Shown: piece after piece, positions 8,932 through 22,916 of the stretch | How positions within the stretch are numbered: the stretch's first letter is position 1 | Layout of the letters: every line of letters starts with the position of its first letter | Origin: Bacteroidales bacterium | GTDB taxonomy: Bacteria > Bacteroidota > Bacteroidia > Bacteroidales > JAADJA01 | Length of the DNA stretch: 56,792 bases | Reading direction: 5' to 3' | NCBI GenBank assembly: GCA_020052415.1 | Contig: JAGVPB010000017.1 | Coordinates: forward strand, 1-56,792 | Notes under the pieces: model-generated | Seen by the model: the letters and a program-made list of their open reading frames with translations, nothing else | Database searches by the model: none | What the model was told of the DNA's origin: nothing | Position numbers and translations under genes: made by a program

Positions 8932-9564
8932 TTAAATGTTGAAACTTAATTTTTCCTTTTGCTTTTCAAAATACTCAATCCCGTTTTGGTTTGCGATCCC
9001 CCTGATGTGATTTTCAAACATGACCTCAAAAACATTTTCAAAAGAGAAATTCTGTAAATCAGTCAGTTCGGGATTATGAAAATCTTCAATCTTTTTAAAA
9101 TACAAATGTGCTATTATATCTTTATTCAAATCCTGACGGTACAATCCTTCTTTTATTCCCTGCTCAAGATTTTTTTTAATGTTTTCAACCAGCAAGTCCT
9201 TTTTTATGCACAGATATTGCTCAAAGACCTGCGGATAATATTTCCTGAATTCGAAAGTGATCATAGAATTTATGTGGAAATGTTTTTCATTTGCGATCTT
9301 ACTCATTTCGAGAAGAATGTCAATGGCATTGAGATCCGTTTGTGAAAGCTCTTCCATTCTTTGTTTGATGGATTCCTGGATATAAAGGCTGATCTTTTTC
9401 AGCAAGTCAACCTTGTTTTCGACAAACCGGTAGAGGGTCTTTTTCGAAATGCCCAGCATTCGGCTCAGGTCGTCCATTGAAATATTCCGGATACCATGTT
9501 CGATAAAGATCTTGTAAGTTCCTTCAATAATTGAAGCGTATTTAACCTCTGTATCGGTCATCAT
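8932..9564 (-). CDS. TetR/AcrR-family regulator of the efflux operon
   Basis: A 210-residue regulator. The N-terminal helix-turn-helix at about 15-60 (GIRNISMDDLSRMLGISKKTLYRFVENK) is typical of TetR/AcrR; the rest is helical and would bind a ligand. The start may be at 9564 or one codon later at 9561, since both are Met. As first gene of the operon it probably represses its own transcription and that of the pump until a substrate binds. A 7-bp inverted repeat at the upstream promoter is a plausible operator. Confidence 0.92.
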   Translation of the reverse strand: MMTDTEVKYASIIEGTYKIFIEHGIRNISMDDLSRMLGISKKTLYRFVENKVDLLKKISLYIQESIKQRMEELSQTDLNAIDILLEMSKIANEKHFHINSMITFEFRKYYPQVFEQYLCIKKDLLVENIKKNLEQGIKEGLYRQDLNKDIIAHLYFKKIEDFHNPELTDLQNFSFENVFEVMFENHIRGIANQNGIEYFEKQKEKLSFNI

Positions 9565-11709: not shown

Positions 11710-13059
11710 CTAATCCATATACCCTGCCTCCGAAAGCAGTGTCCAGCCGCTAGCCCAGTTTACTATTCCAAAAGCGCCTTTATAATTTACTTGGATGAAC
11801 CAGCTGTCGGGCAAAGGCGCCATGTTTTCTCCGACATTAACTAACGGGATCAGCCGGTAATAATCAGGCGAAATGGTAAAACCCGGATCGGAAACTATAT
11901 TCATCGCCTGTGTAAAATATGCCTTAAATACCTGGTTTTGCGATGTTGTATTGGTTCCATTTCCGGCATAAACATTAAAAATATCTTCTGCGGTATTTTC
12001 CGCTATGTCCCAGAAAATATTGTTTTTTATTTCAAGATTACCCGATTCAAACTGTGTATAACTGTTGGAAGAGTTGTCTTTATATTCGATTTTAATGCCG
12101 CCCGACTGGTTCGTAAAAATTGAATTTGCGAATTTACCTGCTGAGTTCATGCTGAATTGTGCGGCATTATTGGTAATATGGCTTCCCCTGCCGACGAATG
12201 TTCCATTGTAAATAACAGGTATTGAATAAGGCATACCGATTTCAGGATCGGTACCACCGCCGCATTCGAGGATCAAATCCCCATCCCCTGGATCCTGAAT
12301 GGCAAGCCAGAACTGGCCTTTTCCCGAATAACCCAGGTCATAATCGAAAGCATCATCCCCATTAAAAGCAGAAACCACATACCTGCAATTAACCCTTCCT
12401 CCAAAAAACTCAATGCCATCATCCTTATTGGAAATTATTTCAATTTTTTCAATGGTGGTTCCACTACCCACCCCGCCGAGCGTCAATCCGTTTATTTCAT
12501 TGCCCTCGCCAATATTTGTACCGCCATGCCGAATGGATACATATTTTAAAATCCCGGAATTATCTTCATCGTCATCGCCTCCAAATATCCCTCTTGTTTC
12601 ATAAAACGGAATACCCTCGATGTGACTTTCACCGGTTTGTAAATTAAGCCTTGCATTGCCAAGTATAATTAATCCGCCCCATAATCCCTTTGTCATCACG
12701 GGAACGGAGCCTTCAAGGTCATCGCCTACACATGTAAATATAACAGGCTTGTCAGCCGTTCCTTCTGCAATTAATTTTCCCCCTCTTGCCACGATCAGTG
12801 CCGATGCGTTTTCTCCCTGCCCTGTTTTACCTCTGACGACAGTTCCGGCTTCAATAGTCAGTGTTTGTCCGTCATTGACAAATACAAGACCATCAAGCAG
12901 GTATTGCTTATCGGAAGTCCAGGTGGTCGTTCCGGTACCACCGCCATTGTCCTCAATTGCTTCGAAATCGCTATCAATGATGTAATCGCTTTTCCTGTCG
13001 CAGGAAATTAAAACGATGATCATCAGATTAAATAAAGTAATTTGAATATAAGCCTTCAT
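11710..13059 (-). CDS. Secreted parallel-repeat lipoprotein, paralogue of 19244-20599
   Basis: A 449-residue lipoprotein with lipobox VLISC. After a linker it reads as a right-handed beta-helix type protein rich in Gly, Asn and Asp (LTIEAGTVVRGKTGQGENASALIVARGGKLIAEGTADKPVIFT, given in its conserved parts). Shared with its paralogue are NGLTLGGVGSGT, NKDDGIEFFGG, DDAFDYD and QFWLAIQDP. It starts 11 bp after the porin on the same transcript. No catalytic site or T9SS tail is visible. The function is unknown; the company of a porin, a TonB receptor and a Pho-like regulator suggests surface capture of a nutrient such as phosphate or organophosphate. Confidence 0.8.
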   Translation of the reverse strand: MKAYIQITLFNLMIIVLISCDRKSDYIIDSDFEAIEDNGGGTGTTTWTSDKQYLLDGLVFVNDGQTLTIEAGTVVRGKTGQGENASALIVARGGKLIAEGTADKPVIFTCVGDDLEGSVPVMTKGLWGGLIILGNARLNLQTGESHIEGIPFYETRGIFGGDDDEDNSGILKYVSIRHGGTNIGEGNEINGLTLGGVGSGTTIEKIEIISNKDDGIEFFGGRVNCRYVVSAFNGDDAFDYDLGYSGKGQFWLAIQDPGDGDLILECGGGTDPEIGMPYSIPVIYNGTFVGRGSHITNNAAQFSMNSAGKFANSIFTNQSGGIKIEYKDNSSNSYTQFESGNLEIKNNIFWDIAENTAEDIFNVYAGNGTNTTSQNQVFKAYFTQAMNIVSDPGFTISPDYYRLIPLVNVGENMAPLPDSWFIQVNYKGAFGIVNWASGWTLLSEAGYMD

Positions 13060-13069
13060 TTGAGGTCTT

Positions 13070-14089
13070 TTAAAAAGAAATTTCCAGATTCAGATAGATA
13101 AATTGCCTGTTAGCTTCGCTTTTTGCATAGGGAAACCAATCCTGGTAATCAAAAGCGATTTTTATCAGTTTTATCGGCGAATACTCAATCCCGGCAATGA
13201 TAGAGCTCCCGTCTGATGAAATATTCCAGGGGATTTCTTCACCCTGATGCTTGTTGGAGGACAATTCATCATAACGTCCGAATAACTGGATTTTCTTAAA
13301 CGGATTCCATGATCCATAAACCGAGTAACCAAATTTGTCATTTCCATCCTGAAATTCCTCGTTAAACCTGTAATTGTACTCTATCCCGGCTGAATATTTT
13401 TCCTTTTTCCGGTAACCGATAAATCCGGCTACCGTAACCTGATCACTTTCTTTTGTGGTATAATCGCAATAGATACGTGTAACAAGGTTTTCCCAAGGAT
13501 TTATGGTGATACCGGAGCCGGCTTTGAGTGTATTGTCATTTTGTAAATTTGTATAACCTTCACCGTTCATGACCGTAAAATCAACTGCAAGCCATTTTTT
13601 CCAATCATAATTAATCAGCCAGCCCAGATCGGCTGTGTTTCCAAACCTATACCGGTCGTTAAATGATTTTTCAATATAACGGTGATCCCAAAATCTCTCC
13701 TGAAGTTTGAAATGCTGAAGATCAATGATCCCAAAATAAGAAGTGATTTTTTTGTAATTAAATTTTAAATACGCGCTTCTAAAATAGGCATACCTCCTGA
13801 TCCTTGAATATTCCGAGAGATCTTCAGGGCTCCCTATATCCAGCCTGACACAAGCTTCAAAATATTCCGACAATCTGTTCTCATATCCCAAATATGCCCG
13901 GGTAATTTCAAAAGCCAATGCATTGTTTCCGGTATTGATATTGGAATGAAAATTACTGAAAATCTTACCCGAGACTTTTCCGGGTATTTGGATGTGTGTC
14001 GAATCGCCCGCCATCACAACTCCTTTTAAAAATAATATTGCGGTGATACCACACAGATAACAAAGGATTTGTTTCGTCCATATTTTCAT
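13070..14089 (-). CDS. OprO/OprP-like outer-membrane porin
   Basis: A beta-barrel porin of about 339 residues. The open frame reaches 14116, but the Met at 14089 (MKIWTKQILCYLCG) gives a clean signal peptide and is preferred. The mature part has the alternating pattern and motifs of phosphate-selective porins O/P (ITRAYLGYENRLSEYFEACVRLDIG; WLINYDWKKWLAVDFTVMNGEGY, in pieces) and ends in an aromatic residue, as barrel proteins do. A -7 box TATTTTTG lies at 14121-14114. The parallel-repeat lipoprotein follows directly in the same operon. Anion or phosphate selectivity is inferred from the family only. Confidence 0.8.
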   Translation of the reverse strand: MKIWTKQILCYLCGITAILFLKGVVMAGDSTHIQIPGKVSGKIFSNFHSNINTGNNALAFEITRAYLGYENRLSEYFEACVRLDIGSPEDLSEYSRIRRYAYFRSAYLKFNYKKITSYFGIIDLQHFKLQERFWDHRYIEKSFNDRYRFGNTADLGWLINYDWKKWLAVDFTVMNGEGYTNLQNDNTLKAGSGITINPWENLVTRIYCDYTTKESDQVTVAGFIGYRKKEKYSAGIEYNYRFNEEFQDGNDKFGYSVYGSWNPFKKIQLFGRYDELSSNKHQGEEIPWNISSDGSSIIAGIEYSPIKLIKIAFDYQDWFPYAKSEANRQFIYLNLEISF

Positions 14090-14275
14090 AAAATCCGAAC
14101 TTGATAATGCCATCAAAAATAAAAAGTCCGGTTTTTATTTCGTGATTTAAACACAAATATTATTAACAAAAATTTCATTGATACTTTAGAATATATTTAC
14201 TTGTTTTAGTGTATTTTACGCTTTGTAATTTGATTATTGTTTTTGTGACAGTCAGTAAATTTTTTGATTTAATTC

Positions 14276-14331
14276 TTAAGAAAAACTTAACTCACGGTTA
14301 AAATTAACTTAAGAATGACAGAATACTTTTG
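14276..14331 (+). promoter_or_regulatory. Pho-box-like array of four 11-bp direct repeats plus -7 box
   Basis: Four head-to-tail 11-bp units start at 14276, 14287, 14298 and 14309, each beginning TTAA. The fourth ends at 14319, and 4 bp later TACTTTTG (14324-14331) fits the -7 element. PhoB-type OmpR regulators bind 11-bp direct repeats that replace the upstream promoter element. The same layout occurs before the lipoprotein gene at 20599. Binding by the PhoB-like regulator at 20760 is inferred. Confidence 0.65.
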
Positions 14332-14353: not shown

Positions 14354-14707
14354 ATGAAAAATACAATCTTAATTATAGCATTCTCCGTTTTTATGGGTTG
14401 GGCGATTGCCGGAAACGACATATCATCAGGCAGTAATCCGGTAACTCCGGTTCAAAAGGTTACCTTAACAGGGAAAGTGATTGACTTTAATTCGGGGGAA
14501 GCATTAACAGGAGTTGAGGTTTCTATTGAAGGAACCGGCATTGTTACATACACCGATTTTGACGGGAACTTTGAGATAAAAGATGTTGTGCCCGGAACTT
14601 ATAATCTCATCGCTTCGTTCATTTCCTATAAGAACAGCCTGGTTGAGAATTTCGACGCTGCACAAAATAAAAGTTTTGTTGATATAAAGTTGCAGACTTC
14701 AAATTAA
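14354..14707 (+). CDS. Secreted CarboxypepD-regulatory-like domain protein
   Basis: A 117-residue protein with a signal peptide (ILIIAFSVFMGWAIAGND) and one CarboxypepD_reg-like beta-sandwich domain (LTGKVIDFNSGEALTGVEVSIEGTGIV, DGNFEIKDVVPGTYNL). That domain normally forms the N-terminus of TonB receptors; here it stands alone. It has the strongest Pho-box-like promoter in the window and is divergent from the porin operon. It could be a periplasmic or surface accessory of the nutrient system. A similar domain opens the TonB receptor at 16364-19168. Confidence 0.82.
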   Translation: MKNTILIIAFSVFMGWAIAGNDISSGSNPVTPVQKVTLTGKVIDFNSGEALTGVEVSIEGTGIVTYTDFDGNFEIKDVVPGTYNLIASFISYKNSLVENFDAAQNKSFVDIKLQTSN

Positions 14708-16363: not shown

Positions 16364-19168
16364 TTAATGTAAATTATAGGTTATTCCTAAACCAAATGAT
16401 ATTCCTTTTGAATATTTATAAAAAGAATAGTTAGTCCCGTTATAGCTGTACGATTCGTCATGCACTGAATTCAGGAGGTTTTTGGCTGAGAAGGAAACCG
16501 TAAAAAACCTGCCCAGGCTCTTTTTCAGATTAAAGTCGAGCGAAGGAAACGGTTGCTCGAGTACATCAGGTGTCCCCCCTTTGGTAACCAGCGATATTCT
16601 TTCCCCTGTGATGTTGAAAACAAGGTTGGCAGAAAGTCCCAATGTATCGGATTGGTATGCCAGAAGTGCATTGAAAATATAAGGCGCCTGACCGAACAAA
16701 GGGCGCGTATCGGGATGATCAGGTACCAGTGCCCGGATAGACTTCAATTCAACGGAATCAATGGAAACTTCTGAGCGAATATAGGAAAAATTAATTCCCA
16801 CGCTTAAATTCCGGATTGCATGAATGAAATCAAATGATTTCCTTAATTCCGCTTCAAAACCATAATTGTTTGCTTTGTTCACGTTCTGATAGGAAATCTC
16901 CGGATTGGATGCCACCGGATTATCAACCATTTCGATGGGATTGGTGAAAATTTTATAGAATAATCCGAACGATACTATTTCTCCCGGCTTCATGAAATAC
17001 TCCCATTTTAAATCGAAATTATCTATAAGGGTGCTTTTAAGGCCGGGATTACCGATAATAGTTGGAGCAACCGGGCTGAAAGAGGCAAACGGAGCAATTT
17101 CCCTGAAGGTTGGCCTCGAAAGTGTCCGGGTATAGGCTAACCGCAGATTCATATTATCAACGAGGGTATAAGTCAGGTTAACGGCAGGCAGAAGGTTGCT
17201 GTCGTTTAACTCACCTTTTGAAATGTTTTTCTTTTTACTTTCAGAGATTAGATTGTTTTTCTCGAACCTTGCACCTGCTTCTATCCTGAACTTCGCGAAT
17301 AACGGCATATCCGCCATACCATAAATTCCAAATACGGATTGGGTTCCATCGTAGCTGTTCCTAAGATCGGTTGCGTTCTGAACATACAACCCATAGTTTT
17401 GCTTGGTAACAGGATCATAAAAAGGATTGGCCTGCCCGATATTCCCATCGCTGAGATAATCCGAAACACTTCCGTTAAAATATTGGACCTGTGCCAGGTA
17501 ATCAATCTTTTTCTCGGTGAATTCGCGGATTTTATAAACGTAAGCCCCGCCAAAATTAAATTTAGAACCGGCACCTTTTACCTTAAAAGGTAATTCAAAG
17601 TTAAGCTTTGCATCCAGGTTGTTTTCATTCATTGACCGGTTAAACCTCGAAGGTACCTTATATTTGGATGGATTGATCTCATACATTGAACCACCGATAT
17701 TTTCAGGATAATAGCTGTTTGTAAAAAACCTCAGGTCGGGCTCGTTCTGTTTTGAATTGGTTAACGAAACGATCCAGCTTATCTTCAGTTTGGCAAGGGT
17801 CTGAAGGAAATGTTCGCCTTTCAGTTGATTGGTAAGGATCATTCTTTCCTGAAATCCAAGCTCACGGCTTTGAATGTACATTCCAAATTCATCCGAGGGT
17901 TTTTGCCCGAAATCATAGCTTGCTTCTTTAATACCGGATTGATTATAGAACAACACATAGCCGATTTTATGATTTCCTGTGATTTTATAATTTAAGTTCA
18001 ATAGGCCTCCTGCCAATGACTCCATTTCACCTTTGGCCTCAGTATATTCATTTTCGATATTCAATCCTTCGGCGTTGGCGGCTGTAAGTTTATAAATACC
18101 CCGTTCGCCATCATCATAATAATTCAAATCCAGCTTATAGCTCAATCCGAAATTATAGCCCAATGGTTTGCCGAACAATCTGGTCTGATTTCCCACTGAA
18201 AAACTGTAATGCTGGTTCACAAAGGAGCTTTGGGCAGCCGGCTCCATAATTTTGTTAAACGAACGGGTCGTGGCATCAATCTGATCACGATTGGCAGGAT
18301 AAAGTGGAATATCTTCAGGATTTACAGACCAATCCCTTGTCCCGTCATCGAATCCAAGTCCGTCCCATTTTCCTCCATCATAAGAAAGAAATTCGTTATT
18401 AAATGAGGATATTGTATTGTATTCAAATGCAGCCGAAAAAGTAAGATTGAATTTTTCAGGAAAATCTTTGGTCACAATGTCAATTAGTCCGCCGGTAAAA
18501 GGATTCAGGTTTGGACTAAAGCTTTTATAAACCATCATATTTTCGATGGCGCTGGTAGGAAAAATGTCCATCTGGACGGTATTCCGTTCCGGGTCGAGGC
18601 TGGGTATTTCGGCTCCGTTCAGTGTGGTTTTGCTGTAACGATCGCCGAGTCCGCGAACATACACATACTTGCCTCCCTCAATTGAAACCCCGGTTACGCG
18701 CTTAATTGCCCCGGCTGCATCGCTGTCGCCACTTTTCGAAAATTGCTGCGACGAGATGCCATCAATCAACGAAGCAGATTTTTTCTGCATTGTGAGCAAT
18801 GCTGATTCCGTGTTCCGGACTGCCCGCGCCGATACAACAATTTCTTCAAGCCCAAGTGATACTGGTATTAACTTAATATCGAATACAGTGATCTGGTTCG
18901 CATTGATTTCGACTCCGGTAATCACTTGTGTTTCGTAGGAAATAAAAGTGCATTTAATATTCTGCTTTCCCGGTTTAATTCCTGTTATTGAATAATTTCC
19001 ATCCAGGTCAGCCGAGGAACCTATTAAAGTTCCTTCTACCAAAACTGTCGCCCCTATTAATTCCTCTCCTGTTTCACCATCCGAAACCTTACCCCTGAGT
19101 GTTCCGTTCTGTGCTAATAGGGAGATGCCTGCAAGTAAAATCAAAAAAAATAAAATCGTTCTTCTCAT
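16364..19168 (-). CDS. TonB-dependent outer-membrane receptor
   Basis: A 934-residue receptor. A signal peptide precedes a CarboxypepD_reg-like domain (about 25-105: LRGKVSDGETGEELIGATVLVEG). A TonB-box/plug domain (about 115-240: VYVRGLGDRYSKTTLNGAEIPSLDPERN) and a C-terminal 22-strand barrel with the family ending ISFGLGITYNLH follow. It imports a substrate with TonB energy. It shares a transcript with the parallel-repeat lipoprotein (75 bp upstream) but has no SusD partner, so it is not a Sus-type glycan system. Substrate unknown; the adjacent Pho-like regulators suggest a phosphate-containing ligand. Confidence 0.94.
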   Translation of the reverse strand: MRRTILFFLILLAGISLLAQNGTLRGKVSDGETGEELIGATVLVEGTLIGSSADLDGNYSITGIKPGKQNIKCTFISYETQVITGVEINANQITVFDIKLIPVSLGLEEIVVSARAVRNTESALLTMQKKSASLIDGISSQQFSKSGDSDAAGAIKRVTGVSIEGGKYVYVRGLGDRYSKTTLNGAEIPSLDPERNTVQMDIFPTSAIENMMVYKSFSPNLNPFTGGLIDIVTKDFPEKFNLTFSAAFEYNTISSFNNEFLSYDGGKWDGLGFDDGTRDWSVNPEDIPLYPANRDQIDATTRSFNKIMEPAAQSSFVNQHYSFSVGNQTRLFGKPLGYNFGLSYKLDLNYYDDGERGIYKLTAANAEGLNIENEYTEAKGEMESLAGGLLNLNYKITGNHKIGYVLFYNQSGIKEASYDFGQKPSDEFGMYIQSRELGFQERMILTNQLKGEHFLQTLAKLKISWIVSLTNSKQNEPDLRFFTNSYYPENIGGSMYEINPSKYKVPSRFNRSMNENNLDAKLNFELPFKVKGAGSKFNFGGAYVYKIREFTEKKIDYLAQVQYFNGSVSDYLSDGNIGQANPFYDPVTKQNYGLYVQNATDLRNSYDGTQSVFGIYGMADMPLFAKFRIEAGARFEKNNLISESKKKNISKGELNDSNLLPAVNLTYTLVDNMNLRLAYTRTLSRPTFREIAPFASFSPVAPTIIGNPGLKSTLIDNFDLKWEYFMKPGEIVSFGLFYKIFTNPIEMVDNPVASNPEISYQNVNKANNYGFEAELRKSFDFIHAIRNLSVGINFSYIRSEVSIDSVELKSIRALVPDHPDTRPLFGQAPYIFNALLAYQSDTLGLSANLVFNITGERISLVTKGGTPDVLEQPFPSLDFNLKKSLGRFFTVSFSAKNLLNSVHDESYSYNGTNYSFYKYSKGISFGLGITYNLH

Positions 19169-19243: not shown

Positions 19244-20599
19244 TTATTTTCCTGAAAAAAATCTTGTCCAACCTTCAGCCCAGTTGTCGGTACCAAAAGC
19301 GCCTTTATAATTAACAACATCAAACCAGGCGTTATCGTAAGAAGCCATGTTATCCGTCTTTGGATAGGCAGGAACCGGGTTTGTATTTGATATTCCCGGA
19401 TCAGCAACTGAATTTCCGGCTGCATCAAAGTAAATCGCAAAAGCTGCAATTGCGGCCAGAGAATCGGCAGCACCTGCACCCGGCCCTTCAACTTCAAAGA
19501 TGCCTGCACCTGTTCCATTGGCAACATTCCAGAAGACATTGTTTTTTAAGGTCAGATTACCATCCTGGAACTGTTTATAACTGTCCTGAGCTTCCGAAAG
19601 ATTTTCAATGTCAATACCGTGAGCCTGATTTACAAAAAGTGAATTGATATAATGTCCTCCTGCATTGTCGCGGAAAGTGATCATTCTTTTCCCGGCAGCA
19701 GCATCCCGTCCCATATAAGTAGCATTATAAATCGTCGGTATGGCATAAGGCTGACCGGTTTCCGGATCGGTACCGCCGTCATGTTCACCAATACGGTCGC
19801 CTTCATTCGGATCCTGTATGGCGCACCAGAACTGGCCCATTCCCCTGAATCCCTCATCATAATCAAAGCAATCATCGCCACAATAAGCGACAAAAGCATG
19901 TTTAACCTGGGGCTCGCCGCCAAAAAATTCAATTCCATCGTCTTTATTGGCTATCACTTCGACATAGTCAATGGTAGTACCACTTCCGACGCCACCCAAA
20001 GTCAGGCCGTTGATCTCATTGCCTTCGCCAATGTCGGTTCCGCCATGGCGAATGGATACATATTTTAATACACCTGAATTATCCGCATCATCATTTCCAC
20101 CATAAATACCGCGTGATTCGCTGGTCGGAATGCCTTCGATGGCCGATTCTCCGGGAGATGAATTAAGAGAAGCTTTTCCCAGGATGATCAATCCGCCCCA
20201 CAATCCTCTGTCGGTCACAGCAAGCGAGCCGGTTAAATCATCAGCTTCTGCCGTAAATATAATTGGATTATCGGCGGTGCCTTCGGCCATAATTTTACCA
20301 CCTCTCGCTACAATGATAGCGCTGGCGTTTTCTGTTTGACCCGGTTTACCTTTAATAACACATCCCGGCTCGATAGTGAGTACCTGGCCGTCGTTAACAA
20401 AAACAAAACCATCAAGGAAATAGGTCTTACCCGATTTCCAGGTTGTAGTTCCTGTACCGGATCCATTATCAGTTATCGTATATTCGTTTGGTTCCGGGGT
20501 CGGATCCGAATTCTCATCATTGGTACATCCTGTCACAATTAATGTTGTTGCTGCGAACAATAATGCAAGGGTTCTGATACTTAATTTATTCATTTTCAT
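19244..20599 (-). CDS. Secreted parallel-repeat lipoprotein, first gene of the receptor operon
   Basis: A 451-residue lipoprotein with lipobox IVTGC. The start could be 20599 or the Met two codons later. An acidic linker leads into the same Gly/Asn-rich repeat fold as the protein at 11710-13059, with GLWGGLIILGKASLN, YVSIRHGGTDIGEGNEINGL, NKDDGIEFFGG and DDCFDYDEGF conserved. It carries four cysteines not seen in the paralogue. The upstream region has an 11-bp repeat array and it is divergent from the PhoB-like gene. A surface binding protein for the downstream TonB receptor is the simplest reading, but no known domain was recognised. Confidence 0.8.
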   Translation of the reverse strand: MKMNKLSIRTLALLFAATTLIVTGCTNDENSDPTPEPNEYTITDNGSGTGTTTWKSGKTYFLDGFVFVNDGQVLTIEPGCVIKGKPGQTENASAIIVARGGKIMAEGTADNPIIFTAEADDLTGSLAVTDRGLWGGLIILGKASLNSSPGESAIEGIPTSESRGIYGGNDDADNSGVLKYVSIRHGGTDIGEGNEINGLTLGGVGSGTTIDYVEVIANKDDGIEFFGGEPQVKHAFVAYCGDDCFDYDEGFRGMGQFWCAIQDPNEGDRIGEHDGGTDPETGQPYAIPTIYNATYMGRDAAAGKRMITFRDNAGGHYINSLFVNQAHGIDIENLSEAQDSYKQFQDGNLTLKNNVFWNVANGTGAGIFEVEGPGAGAADSLAAIAAFAIYFDAAGNSVADPGISNTNPVPAYPKTDNMASYDNAWFDVVNYKGAFGTDNWAEGWTRFFSGK

Positions 20600-20624: not shown

Positions 20625-20680
20625 CAAAACAACATCTTTAATAAAACGTGGAATTTAAGTTAGGTTTATCTTAAGGTTAA
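20625..20680 (-). promoter_or_regulatory. Second Pho-box-like 11-bp array with -7 box
   Basis: On the minus strand 11-bp units begin at 20680 (TTAAC), 20669 (ATAAA), 20658 (TTAAA) and 20647 (degenerate). Four bp after the last one comes TTGTTTTG (20632-20625), 7 of 8 to the -7 consensus including the TTTG. Number of units, period and the 4-bp spacing equal those of the array at 14276-14331. It would drive the lipoprotein-receptor operon. Confidence 0.55.
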
Positions 20681-20743: not shown

Positions 20744-20751
20744 TATCTTTG
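20744..20751 (+). promoter_or_regulatory. -7 box of the PhoB-like gene (leaderless)
   Basis: TATCTTTG fits TAnnTTTG and ends 8 bp before the ATG at 20760, so the transcript would have almost no 5' leader. The upstream in-frame GTG at 20751 overlaps the box, which argues for the ATG as start. Confidence 0.55.
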
Positions 20752-20759
20752 TGCTTGAT

Positions 20760-21443
20760 ATGGAGGCAACTAATGAAAAAATTCTCATCGTTGACGATGA
20801 AAAAGACATCCTCGAATTTTTAAGATATAATTTCGAAAAGGAAGGATACACTGTTTTTACTGCGCAGAACGGGACTGACGGCAAGGACATAGCCTTTAAA
20901 AACAAACCCGACCTCATTGTTCTGGATATTATGATGCCGGGAATGGATGGTGTGGAATTATGCAAGGAATTAAGAGAGTCCCCTGATTTTACCAATACCT
21001 TTATAATCTTTCTTACTGCAAGAGGCGAGGATTACAGCCAGATCGCAGGATTTGAAGTCGGGGCGGATGATTATATTACGAAGCCTGTACGGCCCAGAGT
21101 TTTAATGGCAAGGGTAAAAGCCCTGCTAAAACGTAAGACCAAAATCAAGGCAGAGCAAAATGTGATTGAAGTCAACAACCTGATCATTGACCTGAACCGC
21201 AGAGAAATAAAGTTTGACGGGCAATCCGTCCATCTTCCCAAAATCGAATTTGATATTTTGGTCCTGTTAAGTTCCTACCCCGGAAAAATATTTACCCGTG
21301 AGGAAATCTACGCCAGAATTTGGGGAAATTCAGTTTTTGTGAGCGACCGCACCCTCGATGTTCACATTCGAAAGCTCCGCGAAAAAATAGGTAACGATTA
21401 CATCAAAACCATTAAAGGAGTTGGCTACGGTTTTAATGAATAA
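20760..21443 (+). CDS. OmpR/PhoB-family response regulator
   Basis: About 227 residues from the ATG at 20760; an in-frame GTG at 20751 adds three residues but lies in the -7 box. The receiver domain has VDDEKD near residue 11 and phospho-acceptor Asp56 in LVLDIMMPGMDG. The C-terminal winged helix (about 125-225) holds YPGKIFTREEI and VSDRTLDVHIRKLREKIG. The kinase follows after 20 bp. OmpR/PhoB regulators bind tandem 11-bp repeats, and arrays of that kind stand before two nearby genes, making this a likely local master regulator. PhoB itself is probable but not proven. Confidence 0.9.
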   Translation: MEATNEKILIVDDEKDILEFLRYNFEKEGYTVFTAQNGTDGKDIAFKNKPDLIVLDIMMPGMDGVELCKELRESPDFTNTFIIFLTARGEDYSQIAGFEVGADDYITKPVRPRVLMARVKALLKRKTKIKAEQNVIEVNNLIIDLNRREIKFDGQSVHLPKIEFDILVLLSSYPGKIFTREEIYARIWGNSVFVSDRTLDVHIRKLREKIGNDYIKTIKGVGYGFNE

Positions 21444-21463: not shown

Positions 21464-22516
21464 ATGAAAAATGCTACACCACGTGAATTATCAGCTATAG
21501 CGGCTGGAATTGTTTCAGGCCTTGTCTTTTTAACAGCAATCATTTTCAAGCTCTTTTTCCCGGATTCAATCCACTGGATTTTTGTTATCCTTATTCCTGC
21601 ATTTGTCTTCATTATTGGGTTTGCAGTGTTCTTTTATATCACCGAAAGCTTTATATACCGTAAGATTAAGGTGATTTATAAAACCATTTATGATACCAAG
21701 TCGGGACAGGAAGAAAAACCGGCCAGGCAAAAATTACAAAATGATATCATTGATTTTGCCGAATCGGAAGTAATTGAATGGAAGAAAAACACACTGAAAG
21801 AGCAGAAGAAACAAAAAAAACTGGAAAAATACCGCAAAGAATTCCTCGGTAATGTTTTTCATGAACTGAAAACCCCCATTTTCAATATACAGGGCTATCT
21901 CGAAACATTAAATGAAGGCGGACTGAAAGATGACAATATCAATACCCGGTTTTTACAGAAAGCCATTACTAATGTCGGCAGAATCGCTGAAATTGTGGAT
22001 GACCTGCAGATGATCTCCAATCTTGAAGAAGGAAGTTTTTCATTGACTGACGATAAGTTCGACATTCTTAAACTGGTGAATGAAACCATCGAATCCCTTG
22101 AAATCAGAGGCAAAAGCAGGAACATTAGATTGTCCGTCAAAGAAGGTTGTGATAAATCATTTATGGTGGCTGCCGACCGTGAAATGATACAGCAGGTATT
22201 AAATAATCTGATCACCAATTCCATCAAATACGGTAAAGAGAACGGGCGTACCCAAATCGGGCTTTATGATATGAATGTAAATGTGCTGGTCGAGGTTTCC
22301 GACAACGGACTGGGCATTGACCAGAAACATCTCCCACGAATTTTTGAACGGTTTTACAGGGTTGATAACGGGCGTTCACGGGAACTGGGAGGATCCGGCT
22401 TAGGCCTGTCCATTGTAAAGCACATTATTGAAGCACACAATCAAACGGTAAACGTAAGAAGCACTCCCGGAATCGGAACTACATTTGGGTTTACGCTAAG
22501 GAAGGTAAAAAATTAG
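21464..22516 (+). CDS. PhoR-like sensor histidine kinase
   Basis: A 350-residue membrane kinase. Two helices (about 10-30 and 37-60) with almost no periplasmic loop are followed by a charged linker, the HisKA motif FHELKTPIFNIQGYL with His133, and a HATPase_c domain (NNLITNSIKYG, DNGLGID, GSGLGLSIVKHIIEAH). Without an outer sensing domain it resembles PhoR-type kinases that read the state of a transporter in the membrane. It shares a transcript with the regulator before it. The last gene of this block; a repeat-rich gap follows. Confidence 0.9.
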   Translation: MKNATPRELSAIAAGIVSGLVFLTAIIFKLFFPDSIHWIFVILIPAFVFIIGFAVFFYITESFIYRKIKVIYKTIYDTKSGQEEKPARQKLQNDIIDFAESEVIEWKKNTLKEQKKQKKLEKYRKEFLGNVFHELKTPIFNIQGYLETLNEGGLKDDNINTRFLQKAITNVGRIAEIVDDLQMISNLEEGSFSLTDDKFDILKLVNETIESLEIRGKSRNIRLSVKEGCDKSFMVAADREMIQQVLNNLITNSIKYGKENGRTQIGLYDMNVNVLVEVSDNGLGIDQKHLPRIFERFYRVDNGRSRELGGSGLGLSIVKHIIEAHNQTVNVRSTPGIGTTFGFTLRKVKN

Positions 22517-22610
22517 GGTTACCGCCCTGAAATTATAATTATAAAATAGACAAATATTCTCTGCAAAGGGGTAGGTTGGGTATAAGGGAAATAGGGGAAA
22601 TAAAGGCAAT

Positions 22611-22664
22611 AAGTGGTAGTGGTAGTGGTAGTAGCAGTAGCAGTAGCAGTAGCAGTAGCAGTCG
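22611..22664. repeat. 6-bp minisatellite (AGTGGT/AGTAGC words)
   Basis: Roughly three AGTGGT units pass into about six AGTAGC/AGCAGT units. It opens the 737-bp gap between the PhoR-like kinase and the esterase. No gene is seen in 22517-22900. Confidence 0.88.
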
Positions 22665-22817
22665 GCAATGAGCAGTCGGCAACAGGCAGCAAGTAACTAA
22701 CAATCAATAAGTAACCAATAACCAGTAGGCAGCGGCAGTTGCAGTTGCAGTGGAAGGGGCAGTCGGCAAAAAGCTAAAAGCCAAAAGCCAGTAGCAATCG
22801 AACCCGGAACTCAGAAC

Positions 22818-22872
22818 CCGAAACCAGAAACCAGAAACCAGAAACCAGTAACAAGTAACCAGTAACCAGCGG
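22818..22872. repeat. 7-8-bp AACCAGA/AACCAGT tandem tract
   Basis: About seven head-to-tail units (GAAACCA, then GTAACCA variants). It belongs to the same intergenic word-repeat class as the other tracts in this window. Confidence 0.85.
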
Positions 22873-22916
22873 CAGTGGGCAACATAGAGTCTGTTCAAAA
22901 AATATTTTTCATTTTA

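Follow-up and report, generated by a model that had tools for sequence, protein, structure and literature searches.

The array lies at positions 14276–14331 on the forward strand of the window, the name used here for the whole 56,792-nucleotide stretch of Bacteroidales DNA that was analysed. It is formed from four tandem 11-bp units, each of which starts with TTAA: unit 1 TTAAGAAAAAC (14276..14286), unit 2 TTAACTCACGG (14287..14297), unit 3 TTAAAATTAAC (14298..14308), which roughly coincides with the −33 position, and unit 4 TTAAGAATGAC (14309..14319). A gap of 4 bp, AGAA (14320–14323), separates unit 4 from the sequence TACTTTTG (14324..14331), which matches the promoter motif TAnnTTTG. On re-reading, the geometry given in the original prediction proved exact, both in the four unit starts (14276, 14287, 14298 and 14309) and in the 4 bp between the last unit and the box. 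Scored over the 16 TTAA letters and the six fixed letters of TAnnTTTG, the array reaches the maximum of 22/22. Tandem 11-nt direct repeats of this kind are also what characterizes the PHO box, the operator of PhoB/PhoP-type regulators.

TAnnTTTG is stated to be the Bacteroidota −7 consensus in the available part of PMC7366714, and the box at 14324–14331 agrees with this element of primary-sigma promoters, its −7 place being predicted from the sequence. The TTTG near −33 that would complete such a promoter is, by reading, absent at the window site, and among the 35 phosphate-type sites described below one has it in that position, a raw count with no random-promoter baseline. The same source, as far as its available text goes, did not find the −33 TTTG in F. 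johnsoniae promoters at large, so the missing element argues only weakly for a Pho box.

The gene served by the array (14354..14707, +) encodes a secreted-looking protein of 117 aa that has a single CarboxypepD_reg-like domain (PF13715, 3.9e-16). The gene divergent from it (13070..14116, −), the start codon of which is uncertain, is called porin-like from weak similarity and position: its product has no Pfam or NCBIfam match, aligns at 25% over 174 aa with a protein of locus L200 that itself lacks a porin match, and shows no similarity to the Porin_O_P protein of locus L129. Behind it lies a gene for a lipoprotein-like protein (11710..13059, −), without a Pfam family, that is 57% identical to the product of a further gene at 19244..20599 (−). 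A TonB-dependent receptor is also encoded in the cluster (16364..19168, −; PF00593, PF07715, PF13715 and PF14905). The 19244–20599 protein is likewise lipoprotein-like and without a Pfam family, and is likened by neighbourhood to F. johnsoniae F-II, which has a pectin-lyase fold; it also aligns at 37% with a protein of locus L193, whose gene likewise follows an exact array.

Divergent from this last gene, and 6.4 kb downstream of the array in the same cluster, is the gene for a PhoB-type response regulator (20751..21443, +; NF053854 3e-67, TIGR02154 8.5e-67, both below the curated cut-offs). It is followed by that for a PhoR/PnpS-type sensor kinase (21464..22516, +; NF046044 2.2e-73, TIGR02966 2.3e-69, both again below cut-offs). 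The best models for the two products are those of PhoB, PnpS and PhoR. The solved structures closest to the DNA-binding part of the window PhoB include E. coli PhoB (1gxp and 3t72); these entries show PhoB bound to its box and to region 4 of sigma. Between phoR and the next gene, at 22610–22880, the DNA consists of long simple repeats (GTAGCA, GGCAGT and similar).

A second array in the same register precedes the 19244–20599 gene (20625..20680, −), and reads TTAACCTTAAG ATAAACCTAAC TTAAATTCCAC GTTTTATTAAA GATG TTGTTTTG. Its score of 17/22 is by itself within chance for one window, and its close orthologues (L079–L083) have the same register with scores of 18–20. Autoregulation of phoB in the window was considered and dropped, as the gene's own promoter contains two good units with a 3-bp gap and scores 16, also within chance.

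The scores expected from base composition were obtained by simulation. In 200 order-1 Markov windows the number of sites per window is 0.785 at ≥17, 0.075 at ≥18 and 0.005 at ≥19, with none at ≥20; in 40,000 simulations of the local intergenic stretch, which is 78% A+T, 0.0125% reach 20 and none reaches 21. Only two other places in the window score ≥17, namely 20625–20680 (−) and a reverse-strand echo at 14257–14312, the latter being the same palindromic TTAAs read on the other strand, without a −7 box. The original prediction had proposed scanning the genome for the motif. In the window's own genome (G000) the full four-unit pattern with ≤2 mismatches gives 3 matches against 0 reversed; the looser three-unit pattern with ≤2 mismatches is not enriched, with 11 against 8, and is uninformative by itself. 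At the matches L002 and L003 the downstream genes have no Pfam match, so that these two sites carry no information on function. At the L003 site (1501–1556; contig C58 of G000, 9224–9279, −) three of the units and the −7 box are without mismatch; it precedes a 248-aa lipoprotein-like gene of no Pfam family. In G000, which is 97% complete, nothing matches PstS and no PstB exceeds the family cut-off, and phosphate uptake there may depend on other carriers. The pst promoters were therefore studied in relatives.

The gene downstream of the array was sought in 60 genomes, giving 13 same-genus copies (that of the window included) and 17 other loci. All 13 same-genus promoters score ≥20 of 22, nine of them 22, and in 13/13 unit 1 begins with TTAA; the reversed pattern reaches 17 in 2/13. 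When periods of 9–13 were combined with gaps of 0–10 in these loci, period 11 with gap 4 gave 13/13 at ≥20, gaps of 2 and 3 gave two each and the other 52 combinations gave none. Pairwise identity between the same-genus sites is 95% over the key letters, 49% over the spacers and 32% over the 40 bp upstream. Of the four units, unit 3 is the least conserved in the genus (83% of 12 sites). A fifth upstream unit with at least three of the four TTAA letters is present in 8% of 12 same-genus sites and 23% of 13 pstS sites, and in 17% of the 35 phosphate-type sites, for which the off-register value is 14%; the counts for the fifth unit and for unit conservation cover 12 same-genus sites, L013 being left out as its upstream sequence is too short. 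The array extends to the other homologues of the downstream gene, where 14/17 loci score ≥17 (reversed 0/17), and to the upstream regions of the lipoprotein family, where 16/30 do so (reversed 1/30). The 14/30 lipoprotein regions below 17 perhaps include genes that lie inside operons.

Across 99 relatives the pattern with ≤1 mismatch is matched 35 times, against 4 for its reverse. Gene context was read for 30 of these 35 sites, in 29 loci (L048–L076): 19 precede relatives of the window cluster genes, eight of the 19 being same-genus orthologues, and the remaining 11 have no cluster-gene relative downstream. At L061 an array of 21/22 stands directly before a phoB gene 52% identical to that of the window, and at L050 the gene after the array is a weak porin-like match, followed by a PstS-like one. 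Besides pstS and this phoB, the genes preceded by the array in relatives encode lipoproteins, receptors and porin-like proteins.

Enrichment before phosphate genes was measured within the order for pstS, recA and alkaline phosphatase, taking for each the 30 loci with the best-scoring proteins from three genome samples that are not identical (a match over cut-off was present in 56/197 genomes for pstS, 55/59 for recA and 73/98 for alkaline phosphatase). Among the pstS loci 13/30 score ≥17 and 9/30 ≥18, against 1/30 and 0/30 of the recA loci (Fisher one-sided, 0.0002 and 0.001); the mean A+T content of the two sets of upstream regions is 64.0% and 63.2%. For the same pstS loci the reversed and coding controls give 0/30, the best of five permuted tetramers 2/30 at ≥17 and 0/30 at ≥18, and the expectation from their own composition is 0.28/30 and 0.03/30, respectively. 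At threshold 18 and period 11, a gap of 4 is found in 9 pstS loci and any other gap in ≤3. The alkaline phosphatase loci are not enriched (3/30 at ≥17, 2/30 at ≥18), and alkaline phosphatases were dropped as a second target set. In a phylum-wide sample of pstS, 6/30 loci score ≥17, with 0/30 for the reversed and coding controls. The large family f99 (e.g. L226, L236, L241) contributes 18 of these loci, 0 of which reach 17, and of the loci outside it 6/12 do; the phosphate operator of f99 may differ. The predicted enrichment before phosphate genes hence holds for pstS, for genes of phoBR clusters and for phoB at L061, and fails for alkaline phosphatase; as a mark of phosphate-starvation genes, the array occurs beyond expectation before pstS, and does not do so before alkaline phosphatase or the pstS of f99.

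A scan of GTDB species genomes for the exact pattern returned a sample of at least 119 records with 120 sites, of which at least four records (L124, L141, L145 and L165) are apparently contigs already matched in the scan of 99 relatives. From their names we place 113 of the 119 in the Bacteroidota or in groups close to it, Ignavibacteria for example, and four presumably come from elsewhere (Orenia, Campylobacteraceae, an archaeon and a gammaproteobacterium); TAnnTTTG in the search pattern itself biases the scan toward Bacteroidota. The match in Orenia metallireducens (L119, 12–67) precedes a protein with the look of a sugar-type solute-binding protein, and is probably due to chance. As the downstream gene of each listed site we took the longest frame with its start no more than 400 bp away, which gave 115 frames, a few of them short and doubtful, and left five sites without one. 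In Pfam searches 35 of the 115 products are outer-membrane efflux proteins, 23 CarboxypepD_reg-like, 16 SulP, 5 Porin_O_P and 3 carry a PstS-type domain, among others. Among the matches listed, exact arrays precede three pstS genes whose products pass the PstS family cut-off. The original prediction had offered four TTAA-N7 repeats before TAnnTTTG as a phosphate motif. As such it is too broad, since 51 of the 115 listed sites precede efflux or SulP genes; bare TTAA-N7 was rejected as phosphate-specific, these genes having other spacer letters.

Those letters divide the sites into two classes, which are defined by gene and not by site. Before PstS and porin-like genes the units read approximately TTAA[CT]A[TA]T, mostly TTAACA or TTAATA, and before efflux and SulP genes approximately TTAAT[TC][CT][CG]. 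The phosphate class was trained with ten porin-like sequences. No more than five of these match Porin_O_P (that of L200 does not), and the others were named by eye and by mutual similarity. In leave-one-out scoring all 13 phosphate-type sites are positive (13.3 to 49.4) and all 51 efflux/SulP sites negative (−10.5 to −44.7). The window site falls on the phosphate side with +36.6, a value that is partly composition because shuffled window spacers average 20.2, with 1.6% of them reaching 36.6. The regulators encoded nearby differ as well: 37 of the 51 listed efflux/SulP loci contain an OmpR-family regulator that is not PhoB, with the helix N-V-[IV]-D-V-Y, and the two of 36 phosphate-type loci that have a regulator in the stretch have a PhoB-like one, with R-T-[IV]-D-V-H-I. 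Judged from these sequences, the same four-unit layout is apparently used by a second regulator, with different letters.

Sites of this second class resemble TTAATTTCGAT (e.g. L116, L130 and L107, within L107–L225), the efflux genes occurring mostly in Pedobacter and the SulP genes in Pontibacter and relatives. The regulator is CusR/CzcR-like, and in L130 the array precedes the regulator gene itself. In 45% of the 51 efflux/SulP sites, against 8% off register, a further TTAA-like word stands 22 bp before unit 1, and thus the efflux/SulP array may be longer, with a gapped half-site.

The array of the window has a fixed geometry, is conserved in orthologues that have diverged around it, and stands before phosphate-uptake genes in relatives. 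Since the same layout is found before such genes, the low-phosphate switch most likely binds there; very probably the array is a Bacteroidota Pho box, on which PhoB would act as two dimers on four half-sites, replacing the upstream promoter element and activating transcription at low phosphate. The binding of PhoB, the dimer arrangement, the activation and the low-phosphate signal we infer from the DNA and its relatives. The original prediction of a Pho box is supported, but has to be amended in that a second regulator apparently shares the bare pattern. Against it speak the alkaline phosphatases, the pstS genes of f99, the window's own phoB promoter, the unenriched three-unit scan, an own genome without a PstS match, the share of base composition in the class score of the window site, the uninduced OprP and PhoR of F. 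johnsoniae and the raised pstS mRNA of the Riemerella phoPR mutant.

Three other explanations have to be weighed against the Pho box. That the array is a product of chance, or of a general A+T-rich promoter effect, is scarcely credible. The intergenic stretch is rich in A+T, single scores of 16 or 17 are expected, and the three-unit scan of the own genome hardly exceeds its reverse; the key letters have nevertheless been kept while spacers and flank diverged, the relatives give 35 matches against 4 reversed, and chance and A+T bias as its origin were rejected on the simulations, the reversed-pattern controls and the comparison of pstS with recA. It is also very improbable, if somewhat less so, that the array is under phosphate control as a repressor or silencing site and not as an activator platform. 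Such a role would accord with the 8-fold higher pstS mRNA of Riemerella without the PhoP/PhoR pair in the available part of PMC5399024. The fixed 4 bp to the −7 box would rather suit an activator that touches the polymerase, as would the near absence of TTTG from the −33 place (the raw count of 1/35 without a random-promoter baseline), and the matching F. johnsoniae genes rise at low phosphate according to the accessible text of PMC8115612.

The strongest of the three, although still unlikely, is that another OmpR-family regulator, either CusR/CzcR-like or a general WalR/PhoP-like one, binds the array and has the phosphate genes as part of its targets. In its favour are the 51 efflux/SulP sites, 37 of whose loci hold a non-PhoB regulator. 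In Riemerella, moreover, 579 of the 583 DAP-seq peaks are accompanied by a motif with the core TTTAACA, and the targets are broad (PMC9603813, available part). What speaks against this explanation is that the two classes separate completely in leave-one-out scoring (13/13 and 51/51), with the window, its score partly due to composition, on the phosphate side; that phoBR lies in the array's own cluster; and that the regulators beside phosphate-type sites (2/36 loci) are exclusively PhoB-like.

Under the Pho-box reading, phosphorylated PhoB would bind the four 11-bp half-sites as two head-to-tail dimers. The promoter-proximal half-site would end 4 bp before the −7 element, so that bound PhoB could replace the upstream contact, with units 3 and 4 covering the −33 place and PhoB substituting for the contact normally made there. 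When phosphate is scarce, PhoB would keep RNA polymerase and the primary sigma factor of the phylum bound at this promoter, and so turn on the small CarboxypepD_reg-like protein encoded in the phosphate-uptake cluster.

There is perhaps an even chance that the two classes of site reflect a grammar shared across the Bacteroidota, in which OmpR-family regulators (PhoB, and the CusR/CzcR-like protein with helix NVIDVYINFLRKKI) would bind as two dimers to four 11-bp half-sites placed 4 bp before TAnnTTTG. TTAA would be the anchor, and bases 5–11 of the unit would choose the regulator; if this is true, the sequence by itself would suffice to assign regulons throughout the phylum. Proteomics has been used to map the phosphate regulon in a Bacteroidota species (PMC8115612, available part), and no description of a Bacteroidota Pho operator sequence with its promoter spacing was found in the accessible portions of the freely licensed literature searched. 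A four-unit box with fixed spacing, if true, would make the Bacteroidota phosphate regulon predictable from sequence. A second regulator on the same platform with other spacers would extend one motif to a testable code that describes how response regulators meet an unusual primary sigma factor.

One known counterpart is the Pho box of E. coli, at which PhoB replaces the upstream promoter element. The two systems are alike in their 11-nt direct repeats and in the PhoB-type regulator (1gxp, 3t72), which is putative here. They differ in that E. coli has two CTGTCAT units and a sigma70 −10 element, and the window array has four units of approximately TTAA[CT]A[TA]T and a −7 TAnnTTTG; two units of CTGTCAT-N4 are accordingly not found at the window array, with its four units and TTAA core. 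Another is the PhoP core binding site of B. subtilis, reportedly defined by Liu and Hulett in 1998. It consists of four TTAACA-like direct repeats with a period of approximately 11 bp before phosphate genes, with repeat spacing less strict than here. Of these features the window array has the four units and the 11-bp period, but TTAAC in only one of its four units, while the phosphate class has mostly TTAACA or TTAATA. Four units are not without precedent, then; the phylum and the promoter type are different. As to binding mode, PhoB is described in the available part of PMC4415409 as binding 11-nt repeats head-to-tail, the E. coli box having two units of CTGTCAT and the ugp promoter multiple boxes.

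Within the phylum, PhoP of Riemerella anatipestifer is an OmpR-family regulator with the same core letters: TTTAACA are the most conserved letters of its DAP-seq motif, and a gel shift was obtained on a 35-nt stretch (PMC9603813, available part). It differs in that its motif was likened to E. coli ArcA, and neither a four-unit array nor a spacing to the −7 box is described in the text accessible. Riemerella pstS mRNA is higher (8-fold), not lower, in the phoPR double mutant, as stated in the available part of PMC5399024. Bacteroides fragilis offers a PhoB of the same phylum at a pst promoter, a gel shift having shown its binding to that of pstC in vitro (PMC3547664, available part). No operator sequence accompanies this result in the portion of the source at hand, where 'consensus', 'motif' and 'direct repeat' have 0 occurrences and 'Pho box' occurs once, in a general sense. 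Pho boxes have also been predicted by computer at the plcP clusters of marine bacteria, with a flavobacterium among the strains (PMC4796936, available part); unlike for the present array, neither box sequence nor strain assignment is given there.

A matching cluster is known from F. johnsoniae. It differs from the present one in that no promoter motif is described for it, the terms 'pho box', 'motif' and 'promoter' having 0 occurrences each in the available text of PMC8115612. The F. johnsoniae phoBR operon comprises OprP, PhoR, PhoB, a TonB receptor and the F-II lipoprotein, and the receptor, F-II and PhoB increase under phosphate depletion, with OprP and PhoR not induced (same source, same part). 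The cluster of the window groups the same kinds of gene as that of F. johnsoniae, and it is by this likeness that a response to phosphate supply is predicted for it.
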